From Roseburia hominis (GTDB lineage Bacteria; Bacillota; Clostridia; Lachnospirales; Lachnospiraceae), in NCBI GenBank assembly GCA_040702975.1, contig CP159990.1, positions 496,001 through 560,000 on the forward strand: a DNA stretch of 64,000 nt. The letters are read 5' to 3'. Made by a program: the position numbers and the translations under genes. The notes beneath the pieces were generated by a model. That model ran no database searches. It had not been told where the DNA came from and saw nothing but the letters and a program-made list of their open reading frames with translations. Shown here in pieces: positions 8,350-24,682 of the stretch. Each line of letters opens with the position of its first letter. The stretch's first letter is position 1.

Positions 8350-8518
8350 GATATTGTTATTATCCTCTCAGCTTCGCGTATTCTCTTTCCGAAGAAGTTC
8401 GGAAAGGGTGAACGCTATTTATTGTACACCATTCGGGGGAAATTGGAAACATTAATTTTTGGAAACTTAGTTTTTTGATGGTTTTCCACAAATTTCAAGA
8501 TAATTTTTGTGAAAAGTA

Positions 8519-11931: not shown

Positions 11932-13278
11932 ATGAAGACACGAAAGCTGGAGAGGGACCTGACGGAGGGGAATATTACCGGAACGATGCTGGCATTTGCG
12001 GTGCCGATGATTCTGGGAAATCTCCTGCAGCAGGCTTATAATATTGCGGACACGTTGATCGTAGGACGTTTTTTGGGGCCGAATGCACTGGCAGCAGTGG
12101 GTTCGGCTTACACTTTGATGACTTTTTTGACGTCTATTTTGCTGGGGCTTTGTATGGGAAGCGGGACGGTGTTTTCCATTTATTATGGCGCGAAGAAAGA
12201 GGACGGATTTAAAAATAGCATATTTGTTTCTTTTTGTATGATTGCGGCTTTGACGATTTTGCTGAATGTCATTGTTTTTGCGGGGATCGATCCGATCATG
12301 CATCTTATGCGGGTTCCCGGGGAGATCTATGAAATGCTGCGGGAGTATTTGAAGATTATTTTCATCGGGATCAGCTTTACCTTTTTATATAATTTTTTTG
12401 CGTTTCTTTTGCGGGCAGTGGGAAATTCCGTGGTGCCGCTGGCATTCCTTGGAGTGTCCGCGGGGCTGAATATCGTGCTGGATCTGTTGTTCGTGATCGT
12501 GTTTCGCAGAGGCGTATCCGGAGCTGCGGAGGCGACGGTGATTGCCCAGGGAGTATCTGCGGGCGCCATGATCTGGTATACGATAAGGAAGATGCCAGAG
12601 CTCCTTCCGGGGAGGCGGCATTTGGAAATCAGCCGTGAGCGGGTTCGGGAGATCGCCAGATTCTCCGTGTTGACTTGTGTGCAGCAGTCGGTGATGAATT
12701 TTGGGATTCTGATGATCCAGGGATTGGTGAACAGCTTTGGCACGGTGGTGATGGCGGCGTTTGCGGCGGCGGTGAAGATCGACTCTTTTGCCTATATGCC
12801 GGTTCAGGATTTTGGAAATGCATTTTCTATTTTCATTTCGCAAAATTACGGGGCGAAGAAGTTTGACAGGATTCATAAGGGCGTAAGGAGCGCGGTGATT
12901 ACTTCGTTTGCATTCAGTGTGACGGTGTCGGCGGTCGTGTGTTTGTTTGCGAGGCAGCTTATGATGATTTTTGTGGAGGCAAAGGAAGTGGAAATCCTGG
13001 CGGTCGGAGTGCAGTACCTTCGGGTGGAAGGGGCATTTTACTGTGGAATCGGCTGTCTGTTCCTGTTGTATGGATATTATCGGGCTGTGGAAATGCCGGG
13101 TATGTCGGTGGTGCTGACGGTGATCTCGTTGGGGACGAGAGTCGCTCTGGCTTATGCGCTGGCTCCGCTTCCGGAGGTTGGAGTTCTTGGAATCTGGTGG
13201 GCGGTGCCGGTTGGCTGGTTTTTGGCAGACCTGGTGGGCGGCGCGTATTATTTCCGTAAGGCGGGGAAGGTGAAATAA
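11932..13278 (+). CDS. MATE-family multidrug/cation exporter
   Basis: 448-residue inner-membrane transporter with about 12 hydrophobic segments. The N-terminal half has VPMILGNLLQQAYNIADTLIVGRFLGPNALAAVG, which is typical of MATE exporters driven by Na+ or H+. The second repeat begins near residue 235 (FSVLTCVQQSVMNFGI). Start follows CAGGAG. No regulator is adjacent; substrate unknown. Confidence 0.9.
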   Translation: MKTRKLERDLTEGNITGTMLAFAVPMILGNLLQQAYNIADTLIVGRFLGPNALAAVGSAYTLMTFLTSILLGLCMGSGTVFSIYYGAKKEDGFKNSIFVSFCMIAALTILLNVIVFAGIDPIMHLMRVPGEIYEMLREYLKIIFIGISFTFLYNFFAFLLRAVGNSVVPLAFLGVSAGLNIVLDLLFVIVFRRGVSGAAEATVIAQGVSAGAMIWYTIRKMPELLPGRRHLEISRERVREIARFSVLTCVQQSVMNFGILMIQGLVNSFGTVVMAAFAAAVKIDSFAYMPVQDFGNAFSIFISQNYGAKKFDRIHKGVRSAVITSFAFSVTVSAVVCLFARQLMMIFVEAKEVEILAVGVQYLRVEGAFYCGIGCLFLLYGYYRAVEMPGMSVVLTVISLGTRVALAYALAPLPEVGVLGIWWAVPVGWFLADLVGGAYYFRKAGKVK

Positions 13279-13314
13279 AATCAAGGGAATGTTAGAAAAA
13301 AGGGAGAAAAAAGT

Positions 13315-13344
13315 AAGAGGTGGCGGGAAAATCCGTCACCTCTT
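13315..13344. terminator. Hairpin between convergent genes
   Basis: 12-bp stem with one mismatch (13315-13326 with 13333-13344) and a 6-nt loop. The plus-strand tail is GATTTTGC. It separates the MATE gene (plus) from the NSS transporter gene (minus). Confidence 0.7.
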
Positions 13345-13416
13345 GATTTTGCTATGATGAATTGTATTAAGCCGCCAGGTATGCCAAGAGAACGAACAGC
13401 ATCGCCCCTTCTATTC

Positions 13417-14781
13417 TTAGAATTTTGCCAGATATCCCTGCACAAAGATAAATAGCACAATAAGCGGAAGAAGATAGGAAACATAAATCTTAGCCCATTT
13501 AGGGAATCTGGCTCCGTTTCCACTGTCGGCCTCTTTGATGAAATTGTTCCAGCCCCAGCCGTATCTGCTGGTACAGAACAGAAGGTAAACGAGGCTTCCG
13601 AGGGGCAGCAGGTTATTGCTGACGATGAAATCTTCTAAGTCAAGTACGCCGGAACCTGCGCCGAAGGGAGCAAATCCGCTCCATACATTAAAGCCCAGTA
13701 CGCAGGGCATCGACAACACGATAATGGCGATCATATTGCCGATTACCGCTTTTTTCCGGCTGCACCCGGTCAGGTCAATGGCAAAAGAGATGATATTTTC
13801 AAACACGGCGATAATGGTGGAGGCCGCGGCAAATATCATGAACAGGAAGAATAGTGTCCCCCAGAGCCTTCCGCCTGCCATGGAGTTAAATACGTTCGGC
13901 AGGGTAATAAAGATCAGGCTGGGGCCTTCTCCCGGATTGACTCCGTAAGCAAAGCAGGACGGGAAAATAATGAGTCCTGCGATCAATGCCACAAAGGTGT
14001 CCAGCGCGGTGACGCAGATGGCTTCCCCGGTGAGGGAGCGCTCTTTGCCGATGTAGCTTCCGAAGATGGCGATCGCTCCGATTCCGAGACTCAAGGTAAA
14101 GAAGGACTGGCCCATAGCCGCAAATATGACCTCAAAGAGACCGTATTCTACCAGCTTTCCAAAATCCGGATAGAGGTAGAACTTTAATCCCTCCACTGCG
14201 CCCGGAAGAGTGACAGAACGCACTGCAAGAATGGCCATGAGGGCAAGAAGCATCAGCATCATAACTTTGGTAATCTTCTCCACGCCTTTTTGGAAGCCCA
14301 TACCGCAGATGGTAAAACACACGATTACTACGATGATCATGTAAATAGCCATGGTGGCAGGCTGTCCCAGCATTTCTGAAAATACACCGGCTACGCCGTC
14401 GGTATCCAGTCCGGTAAACCGGCCGGAAGCCATTTTCACAAAATATTGTACCATCCAGCCGCCGATGGTGGTGTAGAACATCATCAGCAGATAGTTCCCT
14501 GCCATAGCACCCCACTTGTACCAATGCCATTTACTGCCCTTTGGTTCGAGGCGGTCAAAAGAAAGTGCGGCGCTGGCCTTGCTTGCCCGTCCGACGGAGA
14601 ATTCCATGACCATGATGGGAAGTCCCAGAATCAACAGGAACAGAAGATAAATCAATACAAAAGCGGCGCCGCCGTATTTGCCCACGATGTAGGGGAAGCG
14701 CCAGACATTTCCCAGACCGATGGCGCACCCCGCAGAAATCAGGATAAAGCCGAGGCGGGAAGAAAAGTTTTCACGCTGCAT
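13417..14781 (-). CDS. NSS (neurotransmitter:sodium symporter) family transporter
   Basis: 454-residue Na+-coupled amino-acid transporter of the SNF/LeuT fold with about 11-12 membrane segments. The first helix has the family signature FILISAGCAIGLGNVWRFPY with the unwound GLGN, followed by GGAAFVLIYLLFLLILGLP. Substrates in bacteria are usually tryptophan, tyrosine, methionine or alanine; which one is not readable here. A hydrophobic 11-codon ORF follows at 13367-13402 (see findings). A 48-residue membrane protein gene lies upstream on the same strand. Confidence 0.92.
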   Translation of the reverse strand: MQRENFSSRLGFILISAGCAIGLGNVWRFPYIVGKYGGAAFVLIYLLFLLILGLPIMVMEFSVGRASKASAALSFDRLEPKGSKWHWYKWGAMAGNYLLMMFYTTIGGWMVQYFVKMASGRFTGLDTDGVAGVFSEMLGQPATMAIYMIIVVIVCFTICGMGFQKGVEKITKVMMLMLLALMAILAVRSVTLPGAVEGLKFYLYPDFGKLVEYGLFEVIFAAMGQSFFTLSLGIGAIAIFGSYIGKERSLTGEAICVTALDTFVALIAGLIIFPSCFAYGVNPGEGPSLIFITLPNVFNSMAGGRLWGTLFFLFMIFAAASTIIAVFENIISFAIDLTGCSRKKAVIGNMIAIIVLSMPCVLGFNVWSGFAPFGAGSGVLDLEDFIVSNNLLPLGSLVYLLFCTSRYGWGWNNFIKEADSGNGARFPKWAKIYVSYLLPLIVLFIFVQGYLAKF

Positions 14782-14883
14782 AAGTAATTCCTCTCATTCT
14801 TTTTTGATAAACGTGCTTCTATTATACTGGAATCTATCACGAGTGTCTATGGAGAATTTTATAGAATACGTGAGAGGAATGGG

Positions 14884-15030
14884 TTAGGTCCATTTTTCTT
14901 CCCGGCGGACAGGTTTTGTGTTCCCTCCCAGAAGCCCGATGATGGAAAGGACTACACCTGCCGGCCAGTAAAGTAAAAGGGCGGCTCCCCATAAAATGAT
15001 AAATGCATTACTATTTAAAAAAGTCTTCAT
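14884..15030 (-). CDS. Small membrane protein, 48 residues
   Basis: Short minus-strand gene with a GGAGG ribosome site followed by ATG. The product begins MKTFLNSNAFIILWGAALLL. It has a hydrophobic segment from about residue 9 to 35, broken by YWPAG, so one or two short membrane helices. It ends in a charged tail (KPVRREEKWT). I do not recognise the family. It lies between the NSS transporter and the msrC-like gene, all on the minus strand, and could be cotranscribed with either. Confidence 0.65.
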   Translation of the reverse strand: MKTFLNSNAFIILWGAALLLYWPAGVVLSIIGLLGGNTKPVRREEKWT

Positions 15031-15974: not shown

Positions 15975-16886
15975 TTATATTCTGCTAATCGCCTCTTTAA
16001 TCATTTTTTTGCATTTTTCAATGTGTAAAAAATCCTGTTCAATTACCGGTGGCAATGGTTTTCGGACTCCGCCAAGATTCAGTCCCTGTTCTTTCAGTAT
16101 TTCCTTCATTACTGCGTACAGGTTGCCGTGACATACACACATTTCATAGATAATTCTGTCAGCATCATTCTGAATTTCTCTTGCCTTACTTATTTCACCG
16201 GCATCTGTTAGTTCTTTTATTTTCAGATAAAGCTCTGGCATAACAGCATATGTGCCGCCAATTCCACCATCTGCACCGATTGCAAGTCCGCTTACGAGCT
16301 GTTCATCAGGGCCGTTAAATACAACGCATTCGTCACCTTTAACATCCTTGAACATTTGGATATCCTGAACGGATACAGAAGAATTTTTTACGCCAATGAC
16401 TCTCGGATTTTTCAGCATTTCGCGATAAAGGGACAGGTTCAGCGCTACTCCTGCAAGCTGGGGAATATTATAAATAATGAAATCTGTATTTGGAGCTGCC
16501 GAACTAATATCATTCCAGTATTCTGCAATTGCATGGTCTGGAAGATGAAAATAAATCGGTGGAATTGATGCAATTGCATCCACTCCCATACTCTCGGCAT
16601 GTGCAGCTAATTCCATACTGTCTGCAGTATTGTTACAGCCAACATGCGCAATAATTGTAATTTTTCCTTTTGCTTCCTGCATTACACTTTCCAGGATAGT
16701 CTTTCTTTCTTCTTTACTTTGATAGATACACTCGCCCGAGGAGCCGCATACATACAGTCCTTTAACACCTTTGTTAATCAGATGGCGTGTAAATTCCATA
16801 GTCCTTTCACGACTGATACTTCCATCATCATTGTAGCAGGCATAAAACGCAGGGATAATTCCTTTATATTTTTCAAGATTTTTCAT
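15975..16886 (-). CDS. nanA: N-acetylneuraminate lyase
   Basis: 303-residue class I aldolase of the DapA/NanA family that splits Neu5Ac into ManNAc and pyruvate. The Schiff-base lysine is K167 (VIGVKNSS) and the helper tyrosine Y139 (IIYNIPQ), at nearly the positions of the E. coli enzyme. The pyruvate-binding loop reads CGSSGECIYQS, close to the NAL-type GGSTGE. It is the last gene of the minus-strand operon, 18 nt after the oxidoreductase. With nanE and nanK nearby, NAL rather than dihydrodipicolinate synthase is well supported. Confidence 0.92.
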   Translation of the reverse strand: MKNLEKYKGIIPAFYACYNDDGSISRERTMEFTRHLINKGVKGLYVCGSSGECIYQSKEERKTILESVMQEAKGKITIIAHVGCNNTADSMELAAHAESMGVDAIASIPPIYFHLPDHAIAEYWNDISSAAPNTDFIIYNIPQLAGVALNLSLYREMLKNPRVIGVKNSSVSVQDIQMFKDVKGDECVVFNGPDEQLVSGLAIGADGGIGGTYAVMPELYLKIKELTDAGEISKAREIQNDADRIIYEMCVCHGNLYAVMKEILKEQGLNLGGVRKPLPPVIEQDFLHIEKCKKMIKEAISRI

Positions 16887-16904: not shown

Positions 16905-18008
16905 TTATTTTATTTCAGAGACCTTTACTTTTCTGTTTTCTTTGATGGATAAAGTAAGTGCGTCTGCAGTTGCTATTGCTGCCCGTGCTGCAGAACCGTT
17001 TAATAATGGCCGGAATTCTTCGTTAATAGTCGCTCCGTGCATAATTTCATTGAAGTACCTCATTTCATTCTTCATGATGCTATGCAGCCACATTGGCGGC
17101 TTTTTGCCGGGCTTTCCGTACATAATAGCGCCATCCATTTCTGTACCATGGTAGATGCGTGTACGGTCATCGTCTTCTTCTTTTGTTTCATGGACCAGAA
17201 AGTGCTCTTCGCCATTCTCTGTTTTTACAGTCATTCCTACATTTGCCATATCAATGCGGATTGCGCCTTTCGTTCCCTGAATCAGGACATAATGCTCTGG
17301 CCAGTGGAATGCAGAACCATATTCAAGAACTGCAAACTTTTTGTTTGGAAATTCCAGACTGATAAATAACATATCATCCTCATCTCCAAACTGTTCTCCT
17401 CTGTGTGCAACATTTCCACCCATCATGGTTACTGTTTCAGGTTCGCCCATAATGAACTGAATGCAATCCAGTTCATGAATGTGATGATATAAATGTCCAC
17501 CGGATTTTGCGCGTATTTTCTTCCAGCTGATGGATTCCTGCGGTTCTTCCCAGCCATTTCTGGCAGAATGGCAATATAATACGTCGCCAATCACACCTTC
17601 ATTAATCAGTTTCTTGGCGTGTCTGACACCACGGAAAAAGTTCATGACATGTCCAGCCATAAATGTTACACCATGCTTCTCACATGCTTTTACCATTGCG
17701 TCGCAATCTGCATAAGACAACGCAATCGGTTTTTCGCAAAATACATGTACACCATGCTCAGCAGCTTTAATAACTGGTTCTTTATGTAAGTAATTTGGAG
17801 AGGCAACGATCACAGCATTTACATCATCGCGGCCAAATAGTGTATCCAAATCTGTTTCCACATCGCATCCCAGTTCCTCTGCAATCTTTGGTGCGTTTTC
17901 AGGGTCATACACCGCAATAATTTCCGCTCCGTCCTGTTCCTTCATAATTCGTCCAAGCTCTGCTCCAAAATAACCTGTACCAACTACCGCGTAACCAATA
18001 TTTTTCAT
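16905..18008 (-). CDS. Gfo/Idh/MocA oxidoreductase, NanOx-like
   Basis: 367-residue NAD-dependent oxidoreductase. It has an N-terminal Rossmann fold (VVGTGYFGAELGRIM) with the CEKPIAL motif of the family and a C-terminal alpha/beta domain (GGHLYHHIHELD). It sits between the ABC importer and nanA. In Ruminococcus gnavus an oxidoreductase in this position (RgNanOx) turns 2,7-anhydro-Neu5Ac into Neu5Ac; E. coli YjhC is similar. I infer the same role from context and family. A direct alignment is needed to be sure it is not a different sugar dehydrogenase. Confidence 0.8.
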   Translation of the reverse strand: MKNIGYAVVGTGYFGAELGRIMKEQDGAEIIAVYDPENAPKIAEELGCDVETDLDTLFGRDDVNAVIVASPNYLHKEPVIKAAEHGVHVFCEKPIALSYADCDAMVKACEKHGVTFMAGHVMNFFRGVRHAKKLINEGVIGDVLYCHSARNGWEEPQESISWKKIRAKSGGHLYHHIHELDCIQFIMGEPETVTMMGGNVAHRGEQFGDEDDMLFISLEFPNKKFAVLEYGSAFHWPEHYVLIQGTKGAIRIDMANVGMTVKTENGEEHFLVHETKEEDDDRTRIYHGTEMDGAIMYGKPGKKPPMWLHSIMKNEMRYFNEIMHGATINEEFRPLLNGSAARAAIATADALTLSIKENRKVKVSEIK

Positions 18009-18029: not shown

Positions 18030-18866
18030 TTATTTTACTGAACCTTCTGTCATACCACCGGCAATATATTTCTGGATAAACATAAAGAATATTACTGATG
18101 GAATAACCACAAGTGTTGAAGCAGCCATCATACTGCCCCAGTCAAGAATCTCTGCTCCCTGTAAAGACCGCAGCGCTACCGAGACTGTCATCAAATCCGT
18201 ACTGTTTATCAGAATCAGGGAATACAGGAATTCATTCCATGCATTGATAAAAGTATAAATAGCAGTCGCAACAATTCCGGGTGCTACCAGAGGTAATACG
18301 ATTCTTACAAATATAACCATTTTATTTGCGCCATCAACACGGGCCGCTTCCTCAATACCAATTGGCACGGTTTTAAAAAACCCAATCAGCATCCATACTG
18401 CATACGGAACACTGAATGACAGATAAACGATCACAAGACCTATGCGGGTATTTGTTAATCCCATCTTTGCCATAACCAGTGTATACGGGATAGCCAGAAG
18501 TATCGGCGGAAACATATATGTTGTAACCAGTGCGCGTGACATAATATTTCCGAATTTTGGAAAGAATCTTACTATCCCATAAGCAGCCAGAGAAGAAATT
18601 ACAATTGCAATTACAGTTGTACAGAGCGCTATGATTAAACTGTTTGCGATGTTTTTTGTAAATCCCAGTGTTTCAATAACATTTCTGAAATGATCTAGTG
18701 TAAATTCCTTCGGGAAAATGGACGTGGGATTAGAAGTCAGATCCCTTGAGGATTTTACAGAAGAAAGAAGAACCCATAGCAATGGAAATGCTGCTATAAT
18801 TGACAGGATAGTCAAATACAAATGACAAAAACCATTGCCGATTTTTTCCTTTAATTTTCCGGACAT
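18030..18866 (-). CDS. Carbohydrate ABC importer permease (MalG type)
   Basis: 278-residue inner-membrane permease with six hydrophobic segments. The EAA loop (EEAARVDGANKMVIFVRIVLP) contacts the ATPase. It abuts the upstream permease gene without a gap. No ATPase gene is in the island, so a shared MsmX-like ATPase elsewhere must power it, as is usual for this importer class. Substrate inferred from context: sialic acid or 2,7-anhydro-Neu5Ac. Confidence 0.9.
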   Translation of the reverse strand: MSGKLKEKIGNGFCHLYLTILSIIAAFPLLWVLLSSVKSSRDLTSNPTSIFPKEFTLDHFRNVIETLGFTKNIANSLIIALCTTVIAIVISSLAAYGIVRFFPKFGNIMSRALVTTYMFPPILLAIPYTLVMAKMGLTNTRIGLVIVYLSFSVPYAVWMLIGFFKTVPIGIEEAARVDGANKMVIFVRIVLPLVAPGIVATAIYTFINAWNEFLYSLILINSTDLMTVSVALRSLQGAEILDWGSMMAASTLVVIPSVIFFMFIQKYIAGGMTEGSVK

Positions 18867-19751
18867 CTACTTATCCTCCTTTTCCCATTTCCCAATAATC
18901 TTAAAGTATATGAAGCATACAATAAGAAGAAATGCCAGTAGCAGTACCGTAACTGCTGATGAACGGCCAAGCAGTTTTGTTCCCCAGCCCATATTATATG
19001 CATAGATTGGAACCGTTGTCGTTGCATTTGCCGGTCCGCCGCCGGTAATCAGATAAATAATATCAAAGTTATTGAATACCCAGATTGTTCTCAGAACAAC
19101 AAGGAGACCAACCACTACTTTAATATGCGGAACGGTAATGTACAGAAATTGCTGCAATTTGCTGGCGCCGTCAATCTGTGCTGCTTCATACTGATCCTGA
19201 GGTATGGTTTGCAATGCAGATAAAACATTTACCATAATCATCGGCGCTCCGAACCATACATTGATGAAAATAAGTGTCCCAAAGACCAGGCTGCTGCTAC
19301 TCAGGAACTGTGGCAGTTCTGCTGCCAGACCTGATTTATACAGCACATTTGGCAGAAAACCAGAAACGCCGTTGAGGATCCATTTCCAGGACAATGCAAT
19401 TACAATCGAAGGAAATGCCCAGGGGATAATCATTAAAATTCGGTATACGCCTTTCAGACGTTTAACCCGGTTCAATGCCAGCGCGGCTGTAAACCCCACA
19501 AAAATCTGTCCGAGAAGAGAAGCAACCGTCCATAAAATAGAGGTAATAAATGCCTTATAAAAATTCGGATCAGTTAATACACTCTGATAATTGCCCAGTC
19601 CGACAAAATCATAGGTAGCTTTTATCAGATGTTTCGATGTAAGACTGTAGTAAAGGCTTGAAAAAATTGGATAAACCAGAAGCATTCCAACAACAATCAG
19701 AGCTGGTAACACCAAAAGCCATCTGCCATAGTCAATTTTTTTTGTTTTCAC
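18867..19751 (-). CDS. Carbohydrate ABC importer permease (MalF/UgpA type)
   Basis: 294-residue permease with six hydrophobic segments and the EAA loop YEAAQIDGASKLQQFLYITVP. Translation starts at GTG, preceded by AAAGGTGGA. It pairs with the downstream permease and the solute-binding protein upstream, from which it is separated by a strong 14-bp hairpin that probably lowers permease expression relative to the binding protein. Confidence 0.9.
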   Translation of the reverse strand: MKTKKIDYGRWLLVLPALIVVGMLLVYPIFSSLYYSLTSKHLIKATYDFVGLGNYQSVLTDPNFYKAFITSILWTVASLLGQIFVGFTAALALNRVKRLKGVYRILMIIPWAFPSIVIALSWKWILNGVSGFLPNVLYKSGLAAELPQFLSSSSLVFGTLIFINVWFGAPMIMVNVLSALQTIPQDQYEAAQIDGASKLQQFLYITVPHIKVVVGLLVVLRTIWVFNNFDIIYLITGGGPANATTTVPIYAYNMGWGTKLLGRSSAVTVLLLAFLLIVCFIYFKIIGKWEKEDK

Positions 19752-19818: not shown

Positions 19819-21159
19819 TTATTGAACAGAAGCAAACACTTCATTCAATTTATCTTCAGCAGCTTTAGCCGCAGTTTTCACGTCTGTACCATTAGTGATA
19901 ATGTCCTGGAACATTTCTTCTATGATACCCTGAGATGTCAGTAAACCGGCTTCTACGCTTGGACCATGTTCGAATCCGATTGCTGCTGAAAGTCCTACTG
20001 CCTCTGAAATAACCTGCTCCGCATTTGAGAATTTCTGTACGGTCTCATTGGACTGATATTTCTCTGTATCAGAAATACCTGTAATGGACGGAAGCATTCC
20101 TACAGGTGTGGCCGCCAGAAAATCAGTATATGTATCTGTCTCGTACAGTGTCTTAATAAATGCCTTACAGATTTCCGGGTGTTCAGAATTTGCCCATACT
20201 ACCATAGGAATATTAGATGTTTCCGCGCCATAGACCGGGTCGTCCGCATTGATTCTTGGAAGTGGAGCACAGTCGATAGAGTCTACCAGATCCGGTGAGT
20301 TGGTTTCTACGCCTGAGATATGGAAACCACTGTTAAAGTCAAATGCTGTTTTTCCCTGGTAGAAAAGGTTGGCCTGGTCAAGTACTGCATAATTTACAGA
20401 ATCCTTCGGAGAACAATTCTCATAAATATCCAGCCAGTAGTTAATACCTTCAATTGCCAGATCACTTGTCAGGTCTGCTTTTAAATCATCTGTCAGTAAG
20501 CTTCCGCCGCCGCTTCTTACATAGAAGTTAAGAAACCTTGTCGCCATCAGGTCGCCGGATCCACAGGGGAATGAACAACCATATACACCATCCTTTGTCA
20601 GGGTTTTTGCAGCTTCTGCGAATTCTTCCCATGTTTCAGGAACTTCAAGGTTAGCCTTTTCGAGAAGATCTTTTCTGTACCACATTACCTGTGCATGCGA
20701 ATACAATGGCAGGGAATAGCATTTGCCATCCCGTTCTCCTTCTGATAATGCTGCTTCTGCAAAACGGTCTCTTCCGATATCATCAACAACATCATCGACC
20801 GGGATAATAGCCTCAGCATCCATCATTTCAACAACATGTCCCGGTAGTGCTGTACTCATATCCGGAACGTTTCCGGCTGCCAGTCCGGTTGTCCACTTTG
20901 TGTAAAAATCTCCCCAGGAAAATGTCTCAATCGTAATTTTCACATCCGGGTTTTCCTTCATGAACTTGTCGGCAGCTGCCTGAATGACCTCCATTCGTGG
21001 TCCCTGTGTAAAGGAATGCCAGAATGTGATCTCCCCTTCCAGTTTCCCGTCTTTGCCTGAACCATTCTCGGTTTTGCCAGCAGAATTATTTCCACATCCC
21101 ACCGCCATAGATGCCACCATAAGCGCTGCCAACAAAACACTCAACACTCGCTTTTTCAT
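19819..21159 (-). CDS. Sugar ABC importer solute-binding lipoprotein
   Basis: 446-residue family-1 binding protein with a lipoprotein signal (hydrophobic segment, then MASMAVGCGNN; lipid on Cys22). It is exported and membrane anchored. The body has EITFWHSFTQGPRMEVIQ and KFMKENPDVKITIETFSWGDFYTKW, typical of oligosaccharide-binding proteins. It is the first gene of the minus-strand nan operon. Ligand by context: Neu5Ac or 2,7-anhydro-Neu5Ac, as for the R. gnavus SAT2 importer. Confidence 0.9.
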   Translation of the reverse strand: MKKRVLSVLLAALMVASMAVGCGNNSAGKTENGSGKDGKLEGEITFWHSFTQGPRMEVIQAAADKFMKENPDVKITIETFSWGDFYTKWTTGLAAGNVPDMSTALPGHVVEMMDAEAIIPVDDVVDDIGRDRFAEAALSEGERDGKCYSLPLYSHAQVMWYRKDLLEKANLEVPETWEEFAEAAKTLTKDGVYGCSFPCGSGDLMATRFLNFYVRSGGGSLLTDDLKADLTSDLAIEGINYWLDIYENCSPKDSVNYAVLDQANLFYQGKTAFDFNSGFHISGVETNSPDLVDSIDCAPLPRINADDPVYGAETSNIPMVVWANSEHPEICKAFIKTLYETDTYTDFLAATPVGMLPSITGISDTEKYQSNETVQKFSNAEQVISEAVGLSAAIGFEHGPSVEAGLLTSQGIIEEMFQDIITNGTDVKTAAKAAEDKLNEVFASVQ

Positions 21160-21253
21160 AAAATACCTCCTTCACATTTTTTGTTGTATTTGCTTTGTTG
21201 AAGTAAATTCTACGATATTTTTTTGTGCAGTTCTACGGTAAGAAATCTCAATA

Positions 21254-21270
21254 ATAGCACATTACGCTTG
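21254..21270 (-). promoter_or_regulatory. Nan operator candidate, site A
   Basis: On the minus strand it reads CAAGCGTAATGTGCTAT, matching sites B and C at 15 of 17 positions. Its centre is 50 bp upstream of the TAGAAT box of the importer operon, the same distance and orientation as site C has to the -10 of the plus-strand operon. Confidence 0.65.
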
Positions 21271-21393
21271 TAATATAAACTTTTTGTTTTTCCCCTTTTC
21301 CGTATAAAAACAAAAAAATAGAGGCGTAATCCGTTAAATACAGACATACGCCCTTCTCATTTTATATGATTAAACATTTTATAAACTCCATTT

Positions 21394-21410
21394 ATAGCAC
21401 AATACACTTG
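21394..21410 (-). promoter_or_regulatory. Nan operator candidate, site B
   Basis: CAAGTGTATTGTGCTAT on the minus strand, identical to site C (17 of 17). It lies 140 bp upstream of site A, centre to centre, just past the 3' end of the araC-type gene. Confidence 0.6.
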
Positions 21411-21423
21411 AAATCTGTGGCAC

Positions 21424-22290
21424 CTAATCCTTCGCGGCTTTCCGGTATTGGTTTGGGGTATATCCAAAAGCTGCCTTAAATTCTCTGATGAAATAGTTCG
21501 GATCTTCATACCCAACCTCATAGGCAATTTCACTAACTGTCTCATTACACACTAATAATTTTCTCGCAGCCATTGTCAGCTTAAGCTCCTTAATGTACAG
21601 CATCGGTGATTTTCCAACCTGCTCCTTAAACAGACAGCTGAATCTTTGCTTGCTCAGTTCTGCCATATCAGCCATACGCTGCGGGGTATATTTTTCTGAC
21701 GGATGCAACGTGATATAATCCATCACGAACTGAATCCGTGAATCGACTTTATTGCTGACTTTCCGTATCCGCTGCCGGATTTTTTCAAGGTTATACTCAT
21801 CACTGCTGTGTTTTGTTTCTTTTCCGCAATTATCGGTTATATTCATTTTAGAAATTAATGTTCCAATTAAAATCTCAAGATATCCCCTCACGAAATACAT
21901 TTTTGCCGGACTGTCTTCCTTTACCCAGTGATATATCTGTTCAAAATATGTCTTTACTTCCCTGCAGTCCATTACCTTCTGAATTCCATAGTAATCTGAA
22001 AGAAAATCTCCTCCTTCGAAATATACGGATGTAGTAAAACGGATACTGGTAAATGAAAAATTGTCCTCTATTGCATAGCAGGATAATTTGCTTCCTCTGG
22101 GAATGTACACAATTTGATTCTTATAAACGGTAAATTCTTCGTCATCAATAAAGAATGTTCCAGTACCTGATTCTATATAACGCAGCAGATTATATGGAAT
22201 CATGCTTTCCGGGAAAACCCAGTTTCTTCCAAATGAATAGGTGTCGATATATAAAAAATTAAATCTGACATTGTCAACAACACTGCTCAT
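21424..22290 (-). CDS. AraC-family transcriptional regulator of the nan island
   Basis: 288-residue regulator. It has an N-terminal cupin-like sensor (VYKNQIVYIPRGSKLSCY, about residues 45-75) and a C-terminal AraC double helix-turn-helix (about residues 190-285, ending NETVSEIAYEVGYEDPNYFIREFKAAFGYTPNQYRK). It is divergent from the nanE-nanK operon and upstream of the importer operon, so it probably controls both. The minus-strand promoter (TTGCAA 22344-22349, TATAAT 22320-22325) overlaps nan motif site C, which allows autoregulation. Confidence 0.92.
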   Translation of the reverse strand: MSSVVDNVRFNFLYIDTYSFGRNWVFPESMIPYNLLRYIESGTGTFFIDDEEFTVYKNQIVYIPRGSKLSCYAIEDNFSFTSIRFTTSVYFEGGDFLSDYYGIQKVMDCREVKTYFEQIYHWVKEDSPAKMYFVRGYLEILIGTLISKMNITDNCGKETKHSSDEYNLEKIRQRIRKVSNKVDSRIQFVMDYITLHPSEKYTPQRMADMAELSKQRFSCLFKEQVGKSPMLYIKELKLTMAARKLLVCNETVSEIAYEVGYEDPNYFIREFKAAFGYTPNQYRKAAKD

Positions 22291-22319
22291 TTTTCGCCTC
22301 CTAATATGTATTTACCTAT

Positions 22320-22349
22320 ATTATATCTTCTATTTTTTACATATTGCAA
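22320..22349 (-). promoter_or_regulatory. Promoter of the araC-type gene
   Basis: Minus strand: TTGCAA (22344-22349), 18-bp spacer, TATAAT (22320-22325). The -35 overlaps the edge of site C. Confidence 0.65.
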
Positions 22350-22363
22350 GTGTATTGTGCTAT
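22347..22363 (+). promoter_or_regulatory. Nan operator candidate, site C
   Basis: CAAGTGTATTGTGCTAT in the divergent intergenic region. The centre (22355) is 50 bp ahead of the TATAAT at 22405-22410 that should drive the plus-strand operon; that promoter has no good -35, as expected for an activator-dependent one. Confidence 0.65.
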
Positions 22364-22437
22364 TTTTAGGGTTCGCGCGCATTTTTTTTTCCATCCTTAT
22401 AGAATATAATGAACGCAAAATATAAGGAGGTGAAGAA

Positions 22438-22557
22438 ATGCTAGAAAACAACGATGTATACTGGGAATTAACGGCCTATTTTAAAGAACCAAATCTGCTC
22501 TTCATTAACAGAGGAATGGAGGGCGATACTACAACACCATATTTTAATCTGATTTGA
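22438..22557 (+). CDS. 39-residue ORF leading the nanE-nanK operon
   Basis: Small gene with a very strong ribosome site (AAGGAGG, seven bases before ATG). The product begins MLENNDVYWELTAYFKEP and ends TTTPYFNLI. There is no membrane segment or signal peptide, and it is mildly acidic. It is the first frame after the TATAAT at 22405-22410, and its stop is 10 nt before yhcH. I do not recognise it. It may be a real small protein or a translated leader. The ribosome site and operon position support translation. Confidence 0.6.
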   Translation: MLENNDVYWELTAYFKEPNLLFINRGMEGDTTTPYFNLI

Positions 22558-22567
22558 GGAGGCTTCT

Positions 22568-23023
22568 ATGATTTATGATTCTTTAAAAAATAAAGAAAAT
22601 TATAAGTATTTTCCTGCTTTGTATCAGGCGTTGGAGTATCTTGACAGCCTGCCGGACCTGGAGCTTCCTGCTCCAAAAGTTTTCCTTAACGGAGACAGGT
22701 TATTCTGTAGTTCGGTTATCTTTATATCAAAGCCTGAGGAACAGTGCCTCTATGAGGCGCACCGCAACTATATTGATCTGCATTTTATTGTAAAAGGTAT
22801 AGAAAAAATTGCAACAGCTGATATCTGTTCATTAACTACTACAATTCCATATGTACCGGAAAAAGACATCGAATTTTTAAAAGGGAATGCAGACGGATAT
22901 TATGAACTGAAACCGGGTCAGTTTATGGTCTGTTTCCCAACCGATGCCCATAAGGTAGCAATAATGAAAGAAAAGCCGGCAGAAGTCGAAAAAATAGTAT
23001 TTAAAATTAAAATGGAGGGATAA
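22568..23023 (+). CDS. YhcH/YjgK/YiaL-family protein (NanQ-like)
   Basis: 151-residue cupin-fold protein. The family metal ligands appear as YEAHRNYIDLHFIVKG and PTDAHKVAIM. E. coli YhcH (NanQ) is a sialic-acid anomerase that speeds opening of Neu5Ac to the form used by NanA; EbgC is a relative. Its place ahead of nanE and nanK fits that role. Its stop is two nt before the nanE start, so translation is probably coupled. Confidence 0.88.
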   Translation: MIYDSLKNKENYKYFPALYQALEYLDSLPDLELPAPKVFLNGDRLFCSSVIFISKPEEQCLYEAHRNYIDLHFIVKGIEKIATADICSLTTTIPYVPEKDIEFLKGNADGYYELKPGQFMVCFPTDAHKVAIMKEKPAEVEKIVFKIKMEG

Positions 23024-23025
23024 TT

Positions 23026-23739
23026 GTGAAACATTCAAAAAGTGAAATATTAAATCGAATAAAGGGACAGCTTATTGTATCCTGCCAGGCATTACCGGGA
23101 GAGCCCCTGTATGTGTCTGAAAAATCTATTATGTATCTAATGGCAAGAGCTGCTAAAGAGGCTGGTTCAGCATGTATCAGAACCAGCAGCATCCGCGATG
23201 TCAAAGCGATAAAGGAAGAAACTGGTCTGCCTGTTATCGGTATTATTAAAATCAATTATGAAGGGTATGACTCTTACATAACTCCGACTATGAGGGAGGT
23301 TGACGAACTTGTCGCCGCAGATGCCGATATTGTGGCTCTTGACTGTACCATGCGTCGTCGTGGCGATGGAAGTACAATCAATCAATTTCTTCTGCAAATT
23401 AAGGAAAAATATCCGGATATTGTTCTTATGGCTGATATCTCTACCTATGAAGAGGGTATAAACGCATGGAAGTGTGGGGTTGACTTCGTAGGAACAACCT
23501 TGAGTGGTTATACAGAGGATTCCCCTAAAACAGATGGGCCTGATACGGAACTGGTTCGCAGACTTTCTGCAGATTTGGATATTCCGGTAATTGCAGAAGG
23601 AAAGGTACACACCCCCGAAGAGGCGGTACAGATGTTTGAAGCCGGCGCCTATGCCGTTGTTGTAGGCGGAGCCATAACGCGCCCGCTTGAAATTGCAACC
23701 CGTTTTATAAATAGAATTAAGGAATACCATCATGAATAA
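23026..23739 (+). CDS. nanE: N-acylmannosamine-6-phosphate 2-epimerase
   Basis: 237-residue TIM-barrel enzyme turning ManNAc-6-P into GlcNAc-6-P. Family blocks are QLIVSCQALPGEPL, GIIKINYEG, ALDCTMRRRGDG, ADISTYEEG, DFVGTTLSGYT and VIAEGKVHTPEEA. Translation begins at GTG (23026), with GGAGGG at proper distance. It overlaps nanK by 8 nt. Confidence 0.95.
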   Translation: MKHSKSEILNRIKGQLIVSCQALPGEPLYVSEKSIMYLMARAAKEAGSACIRTSSIRDVKAIKEETGLPVIGIIKINYEGYDSYITPTMREVDELVAADADIVALDCTMRRRGDGSTINQFLLQIKEKYPDIVLMADISTYEEGINAWKCGVDFVGTTLSGYTEDSPKTDGPDTELVRRLSADLDIPVIAEGKVHTPEEAVQMFEAGAYAVVVGGAITRPLEIATRFINRIKEYHHE

Positions 23740-24682
23740 TAAATACCTGGGAATCGATATTGGCGGGACTGCCGTGAAAATGGGAATTGTGAATGAAGCC
23801 GGGGAGATTTCTTTTTTCTGTCAGGCTCCGGTTTCTTTTGATAACTACCGGACCCCGATTCTGGAGACGGTCTTAAAAGTAACGGAAAATTTTTTGGAAG
23901 AAAACAATATAAAGCCCGGTGAACTTTGTGGCATTGGACTTTCTGCAACCGGACAGATTGACACAAAAAAAGGAATCGTGGCAGGCAGCGGAGGAAATAT
24001 CCGTAATTGGGATGGAACCAACTTAAAAGAGGCGTTTACACAGAGATATCATCTACCGGTTACAGTCGTCAATGATGCTAATTGTGTTGCTCTCGGCGAA
24101 AAATGGGTCGGGAGTGCAAAGAATGCCAGGGATGTTATTGTTCTTACTATCGGTACCGGACTTGGCGGGGGCATCATTGTGAATAACCAGATTTTACTGG
24201 GACAGGCAGGATTTGGTGGGGAACTGGGGCATTTTTCCATTCATAAAGAAGGCACCGGGTGTACCTGTGGAAACCGGGGATGCTTTGAACAATATGCGTC
24301 CATGACTGCTTTAATCAAAGCTGTAAGCAGATATTATGAAATGACTGACCCTGGTTACCTCGATAATCATCCTGTAAATGGCAGGAGCATTTTTAAATCC
24401 ATCAAAAATGGCAACGAAGCAGTTGCACATATTGTAAATCTGTGGATACAGGATATAGCTGCAGGAATTGTCAGTCTGGTTCATATATTCAATCCAGAAC
24501 TGATTGTCGTAGGAGGCGGTGTCAGCGTGCAGGAAGAATTGTTTGTTGCAAAGCTGCGGAAAGAGGTTATGAAAAACGTAATGCCGAATTTTAGAAATAA
24601 CCTTACCCTCCGGGCCGCAATTCTTGGCAATAATGCCGGAATCACCGGTGCAGTATATTACTTGATTCAATCCTTATCTTAG
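23732..24682 (+). CDS. nanK: N-acetylmannosamine kinase (ROK family)
   Basis: 316-residue ROK sugar kinase. It has the ATP-binding DIGGTAVKMG, the catalytic region VVNDANCVALGE, GTGLGGGIIV and the zinc motif CTCGNRGCFEQYAS. It phosphorylates ManNAc to feed NanE. ROK kinases also include glucokinases; the 8-nt overlap with nanE makes ManNAc the best substrate call. Confidence 0.9.
   Translation: MNNKYLGIDIGGTAVKMGIVNEAGEISFFCQAPVSFDNYRTPILETVLKVTENFLEENNIKPGELCGIGLSATGQIDTKKGIVAGSGGNIRNWDGTNLKEAFTQRYHLPVTVVNDANCVALGEKWVGSAKNARDVIVLTIGTGLGGGIIVNNQILLGQAGFGGELGHFSIHKEGTGCTCGNRGCFEQYASMTALIKAVSRYYEMTDPGYLDNHPVNGRSIFKSIKNGNEAVAHIVNLWIQDIAAGIVSLVHIFNPELIVVGGGVSVQEELFVAKLRKEVMKNVMPNFRNNLTLRAAILGNNAGITGAVYYLIQSLS

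Follow-up and report, generated by a model that had tools for sequence, protein, structure and literature searches.

The nan locus of Roseburia hominis raises the question of how its two divergent groups of sialic acid genes are controlled, and whether the AraC-type gene that separates them encodes their regulator. The window analyzed here is the whole 64,000-nucleotide stretch of contig CP159990.1 (positions 496,001 to 560,000), and coordinates refer to it unless a locus label is given. In the window, the AraC-type gene sits between a minus-strand transporter/nanOx/nanA operon and a plus-strand yhcH–nanE–ROK kinase operon, with the following genes.

15975 to 16886, minus strand: DHDPS-family N-acetylneuraminate lyase-like protein, NanA-like, scoring below the NCBIfam nanA cut-offs
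16905 to 18008, minus strand: Gfo/Idh/MocA oxidoreductase, NanOx-like
18030 to 18866, minus strand: ABC permease
18867 to 19751, minus strand: ABC permease
19819 to 21159, minus strand: solute-binding protein (SBP) of an ABC transporter
21424 to 22290, minus strand: AraC-type regulator, 288 aa, AraC_binding and HTH_18 by domain search
22568 to 23023, plus strand: YhcH/YjgK/YiaL family protein
23026 to 23739, plus strand: NanE, putative ManNAc-6-P epimerase
23732 to 24682, plus strand: ROK-family kinase, NanK-like by position

The regulator contains an N-terminal AraC-type ligand-binding domain (AraC_binding, 26.6 bits; cutoff 21.1) and a C-terminal double helix-turn-helix (HTH) domain (HTH_18, E = 5.6e-21, 75.1 bits; cutoff 33.6), and its PDB matches, all in the C-terminal DNA-binding part, include the DNA-binding domains of AraC and MarA. 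Its closest relatives are named Dorea or Lachnospiraceae, and the chromosome segment in the window is of Lachnospiraceae type. No sialidase gene is annotated in the window's nan cluster. The plus-strand operon opens with a 39-codon ORF (22438–22557, plus strand) that matches a GDSL esterase over 26 residues (69% identity) and appears to be what is left of such a gene; among the loci compared below, longer GDSL frames lie upstream of yhcH in L008, L010, L053, L068, and L071–L073, among others, and no GDSL match to the ORF was found in L006 or L009.

The sequence-only reading had described a 17-bp motif (CAAGTGTATTGTGCTAT) at three positions, two exact and one matching at 15 of 17 bases, and the same coordinates were recovered here: exact copies at 22347–22363 (plus strand) and 21394–21410 (minus strand), and a copy with 2 mismatches at 21254–21270 (minus strand). 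The start of site B lies 140 bp upstream of that of site A, also as described. The three sites and the -10 hexamers of the two nan operons are as follows.

21207 to 21212, minus strand: TAGAAT, the -10 hexamer of the transporter/nanOx/nanA operon, separated from site A by 41 bp
21254 to 21270, minus strand: site A (CAAGCGTAATGTGCTAT), predicted upstream half-site of the transporter-operon operator, from the motif match and its counterparts in the AraC–SBP intergenic regions of other loci
21394 to 21410, minus strand: site B, an exact motif copy and auxiliary site, without a -10 hexamer at 41 bp
22347 to 22363, plus strand: site C, predicted upstream half-site of the yhcH–nanE–nanK operator, sharing 3 bp with the araC -35
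22405 to 22410, plus strand: -10 hexamer TATAAT of the yhcH–nanE–nanK operon, 41 bp from site C

These sites are the only 3 matches in the window at up to 3 mismatches (100 dinucleotide shuffles gave a mean of 0.16 and at most 2) and the only matches at up to 2 mismatches in the whole genome (4,257,935 bp), in which 7 further matches appear at 3 mismatches and a backwards control pattern yields 4 matches in all. Shuffles and genome-wide rarity together rule out a chance repeat as the source of the copies. At both A and C, 41 bp separate the end of the motif from the -10, equivalent to the 50 bp from motif centre to -10 edge that had been claimed earlier and was measured again. The arrangement has a trait of AraC class II operators of the I1/I2 type, namely a half-site of ~17 bp in one orientation at a fixed distance from the -10. 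A second -10-like hexamer near C, TAGAAT at 22400–22405, overlaps the TATAAT at 22405–22410; it was rejected as the -10 because the related loci show the resulting 36-bp gap at one A site of 26 and one C site of 19.

To collect those loci, the AraC protein was searched for in several overlapping sets, so that the counts from the different searches are not independent of each other: a genome contig collection (12 loci), 397 genomes of the family (9 matches at 1e-40, own genome included), 392 genomes of the order (7, own included), the organism's own genus (1 of 8, the genome itself), and the genera of G262 (5 of 12), G721 (5 of 58), and G710 (6 of 20). After removal of duplicates, 29 loci were compared, the window among them. 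Rows left out were L005, a near copy of L006; L016, in which the match is confined to the DNA-binding domain; and L035, L036, L052, L067, and L076, which were repeat fetches of the same loci. In 26 of the 29, a whole or partial transporter gene follows the AraC gene, and these intergenic stretches constitute the A regions examined; the other three are L010 (contig edge), L040 (no nan neighbor), and L070 (nanA divergent).

A site with a TGCTA core was found in all 26 A regions, including L041 with its different spacing, a 5-mer that is weak evidence when taken alone. Within the aligned sites TGCTA is nearly invariant. In A regions with two candidate hexamers (e.g. L056), the choice between them was made with the alignment in view, and in the most diverged loci the motif profile is unselective, with chance matches in L039 and L056 scoring at least as high as the A site. 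Nineteen C-type sites were taken, of which 18 lie upstream of a GDSL or yhcH gene (the exception being L040); none was found in the fetched stretch of the remaining 10 of 29 loci, and L070, whose AraC protein is 39% identical, contained no motif site.

In ungapped alignments started from the motif, a -10 hexamer lies exactly 41 bp from the A site in 22 of 26 cases (0.31 expected from shuffled flanks) and from the C site in 18 of 19. Two C sites are arguable, that of L040 for its absence of nan neighbors and that of L068 for its TACTAT core, which passed the spacing-based search only together with its -10 and was also picked up by a profile scan blind to spacing; with both excluded, the count is 16 of 17 (0.29 expected from shuffles). 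Collapsing sites of more than 75% identity leaves 14 of 18 A sites and 11 of 12 C sites at 41 bp. As a control, the remaining TGCTAY hexamers of these loci were examined; 2 of 391 have a -10 at this distance, and none of the 6 B sites does. The off-spacing A sites are those of L037, L041, L053 (40 bp), and L069, in which the transporter gene is in pieces, and the single off-spacing C site is that of L054 (42 bp). The motif and its 41-bp spacing recur in the Lachnospiraceae and in four loci from other families of the order. The search of related nan clusters that the sequence-only reading had proposed as a check found the motif, correctly spaced, near the nan genes of relatives with the same regulator, and did not refute its proposal.

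Several individual loci show further features. In 5 of 26 A sites (L037, L068, and L071–L073) a further -10-like hexamer is present at a gap of 52 bp, 11 bp past the usual one. L013 (8861–9559) keeps site A; compared with the similar L014, the genes for the SBP and the first permease are missing together with the beginning of the second permease gene, by either deletion or assembly error. In L069 (7735–8494), the AraC gene is intact and site A is present, the SBP and nanOx genes that follow are fragmented, and another ABC transporter lies further on. In L040, no nan gene was found beside the AraC homolog (46% identical), and a match to motif, 41 bp, and TATAAT at 8396 points away from that homolog, along a strand without an evident gene. 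L038 contains two consecutive NanOx-like genes (12636–14956) that are 67 and 78% identical to the one in the window.

Conservation of this kind could also arise if no specific regulator were involved and the motif were either general promoter DNA (an UP element or curvature) or an RNA leader element. The motif is AT-rich and lies directly upstream of promoters, as such a reading would have it; the near invariance of TGCTA and the rarity of the 41-bp spacing among other TGCTAY hexamers make it scarcely credible. The RNA leader element was rejected, since the motif lies upstream of the -10, hence outside the transcript, and Rfam had no match at gathering score.

The motif is very probably the upstream, strong half-site of an operator for the local AraC-type activator at both nan promoters, as judged from the DNA. 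The earlier proposal of an operator for the local AraC regulator is thereby upheld on the grounds of geometry, orientation, and co-occurrence with the regulator gene. Two points go beyond that proposal: the overlap of site C with the -35 of araC itself, and the two-part form of the operator, of which each motif is probably just the upstream half. Within the 397 family genomes, the AraC protein is present in 9 (E ≤ 1e-40), the SBP in 10 (E ≤ 1e-100), and both in 8, so that AraC and transporter genes are found together in 8 of the 11 genomes carrying either. In G370, a genome without this AraC that has a 50%-identical SBP, the motif is absent from the fetched flank. A strict pattern of motif, 41 bp, and TANAAT with no mismatch gave 10 matches in the 397 genomes (5 for the backwards control), 6 of them at the nan cluster in four genomes (2 each in G000 and G262, 1 each in G136 and G353) and 4 elsewhere, and recovered just 3 of the 9 AraC-bearing genomes. 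The one other strict match in the R. hominis genome, at 4160493, lies upstream of a 299-aa ORF.

G353 bears on the alternative that the motif is the operator of another regulator encoded elsewhere, such as an RpiR-type NanR, with the AraC gene a mere passenger. Its contig (L096) carries two complete units of motif, 41 bp, and TATAAT in tandem upstream of the SBP gene (14–77 and 208–271), and no ortholog of the regulator was found in the assembly, the best match being 30% identical over the DNA-binding domain. Just 13 bp of contig precede the first motif, and the regulator gene may therefore be missing from the assembly. Other types of protein do control nan genes elsewhere, as with the RpiR-type NanR of Streptococcus pneumoniae (accessible text of PMC12713135). 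Against the passenger reading, which we consider quite unlikely, stand the correctly spaced motif adjoining the AraC gene in most loci compared, the co-occurrence of AraC and transporter genes, and a spacing equal to that of the AraC site at araBAD.

Two comparisons concern the match between regulator and site. Among 13 genomes (17 have both sites, and 4 near-duplicates were dropped), A and C sites from the same genome are more alike than those from different genomes (0.766 versus 0.697; p = 0.0001 by shuffling, kinship being ignored). In addition, 18 loci combine G at motif position 3 of the A site with K214-Q215-R216-F217 followed by S, G, or T at 218 in the first HTH, and 10 others have T or C at that motif position and R at residue 218; for this comparison the C site was used for L010 and L040, and L055 was assigned to the R218 group by eye. 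For MarA and Rob, recognition of the A-box is assigned to the N-terminal HTH (accessible text of PMC8279559). Position 3 is T at six C sites of G-type loci (L006–L009, L011, and L069), and the association needs one change on the tree; the co-variation is therefore consistent with recognition of the motif by the regulator but weak.

Whether the AraC-type protein activates or represses is addressed by the promoters themselves. A consensus scan for sigma-70 promoters listed 3 sites, compared with 6.5 expected in shuffles, and neither nan -10 box is among them, which points to weak -35 elements, a mild test given that the sites were fewer than in shuffles. The best of the 3 (10 of 12) is the probable promoter of araC itself, given below with the proposed downstream half-sites.

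21233 to 21249, minus strand: predicted downstream half-site of operator A, overlapping the -35, deduced from the geometry and the conserved columns +31 to +39
22320 to 22349, minus strand: probable araC promoter, with -35 TTGCAA (22349–22344), an 18-bp spacer, and -10 TATAAT (22325–22320)
22368 to 22384, plus strand: the corresponding downstream half-site predicted for operator C, deduced from the geometry and the conserved columns +31 to +37

The araC -35 shares 3 bp with site C, and in 6 of the 14 listed loci with C on the strand opposite AraC (the window and L006–L010) the distance from C to the araC -10 is identical. From this overlap, autoregulation of araC via site C appears likely. The overlap favors a reading in which the protein is mainly a repressor relieved by inducer, and site B could form a repressing loop; we hold this reading to be unlikely, as A and C lie upstream of the -35 at one fixed distance from the -10 and neither nan promoter was listed by the sigma-70 scan, both as expected of an activator.

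Site B lies between the araC stop codon and an inverted repeat. B-like copies are present in 6 of 26 A regions. Five of them, in loci that are close kin, lie 140, 162, 163, 161, and 141 bp from A and are in like helical phase; the sixth lies at 239 bp. Looping via site B, raised by the sequence-only reading, is only a possibility. The inverted repeat (21312–21363) is situated between B and A, is followed by a T-run on the minus strand, and was not listed by a terminator scan. It is a possible araC terminator, in which case site B would belong to the 3′ untranslated region of araC.

In the activator reading, the regulator would occupy the strong upstream half-site and a weaker downstream one overlapping a poor -35, and would activate RNA polymerase once a compound of the sialic acid pathway is bound. 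The half-sites would be spaced as araI1 and araI2 at E. coli araBAD, with 17 + 4 + 17 + 20 bp to the -10, and occupancy of site C, which lies in the divergent promoter region, should lower araC transcription. A second conserved block, counted from the motif start, spans +31 to +39 at A sites and +31 to +37 at C sites, with T35 invariant; it overlaps the -35 and falls where araI2 would end and the -35 begin. The self-similarity of the profile has no peak at the 21 bp of a direct repeat, and among A sites shifts of 20 and 32 fit best. Many A sites are followed by an inverted GCACA, which was also considered; the C sites do not share it.

Beyond this, we can tentatively envisage a three-site switch, an extension that strikes us as possible but doubtful, in which one regulator would activate two divergent nan operons through identically spaced operators, repress itself via C, and form a clade-specific off-loop between B and A (or C and A), and in which the nan operon of the Ruminococcus gnavus type would consist of two units, each with this operator. 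The gene order in L068 (GDSL, yhcH, AraC, SBP, two permeases, NanOx, sialidase, nanE, nanA, and part of nanK) matches the published nan cluster of R. gnavus ATCC 29149 as given in the accessible texts of PMC3808388 and, for GDSL, PMC4988440. The operator–promoter module occurs in L068 upstream of the GDSL gene and again upstream of the SBP gene, which predicts a second regulated promoter inside an R. gnavus-like nan operon. In that strain, one promoter was inferred, before RUMGNA_02701, RT-PCR covered RUMGNA_02696 to 02691, and induction on mucin or 3′SL was reported for the cluster rather than for the regulator (PMC3808388, accessible text).

That text contains no operator description for the R. 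gnavus nan cluster. In the accessible texts of PMC4988440, PMC3808388, and PMC12323340, AraC proteins are named by homology, and a text search for the term "AraC" found it absent from PMC10112845 and PMC10017367. A literature search, with subscription journals and regulon databases outside its scope, returned no published description of a nan operator of this kind; as far as searched, the kind of system is known, and the regulon itself is undescribed. The defined operator and promoter geometry makes the regulon directly testable and provides a signature for genome searches. Foraging of sialic acid by gut Lachnospiraceae such as R. gnavus has been discussed in connection with inflammatory bowel disease (accessible text of PMC12323340).

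As in E. coli, where the araC gene adjoins its target, the regulator gene of the window lies next to the genes it is proposed to control; the araBAD promoter with AraC is one of the closest known systems. A 64-nucleotide araBAD promoter query was matched in 5345 of 5426 genomes, with 3575 records at no less than 99% identity. At araBAD, the gap from the end of araI1 to the -10 is 41 bp, equal to that of the motif. The likeness comprises a 17-bp upstream half-site ending 41 bp before the -10, a second site adjoining RNA polymerase (here predicted), and a possible distal site, and it suggests that Bacillota have conserved the spacing of the araBAD promoter to the single base pair. In E. coli, AraC with arabinose recruits RNA polymerase from araI1 and araI2, and without arabinose loops araI1 to araO2 (accessible text of PMC4760080). 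The window differs in its motif, its sialic acid genes, and its two divergent targets, in that a direct repeat and a loop are only predicted or possible, and in that the PDB sequence matches of the regulator fall in its DNA-binding part.

Two known regulators of nan genes are of other families, NanR of E. coli belonging to the GntR family. Its targets are likewise nan operons, among them the one with the NanOx homolog, and it is described as a repressor, unlike the activator proposed here (accessible text of PMC7535918). NanR of S. pneumoniae responds to sialic acid by activating nan genes, as would the regulator of the window, but is an RpiR-family rather than an AraC-type protein (accessible texts of PMC12713135 and PMC7535918). 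The R. gnavus cluster has a similar gene set with an AraC gene, RUMGNA_02699, and its published single promoter contrasts with the divergent operons of the window (accessible text of PMC3808388).
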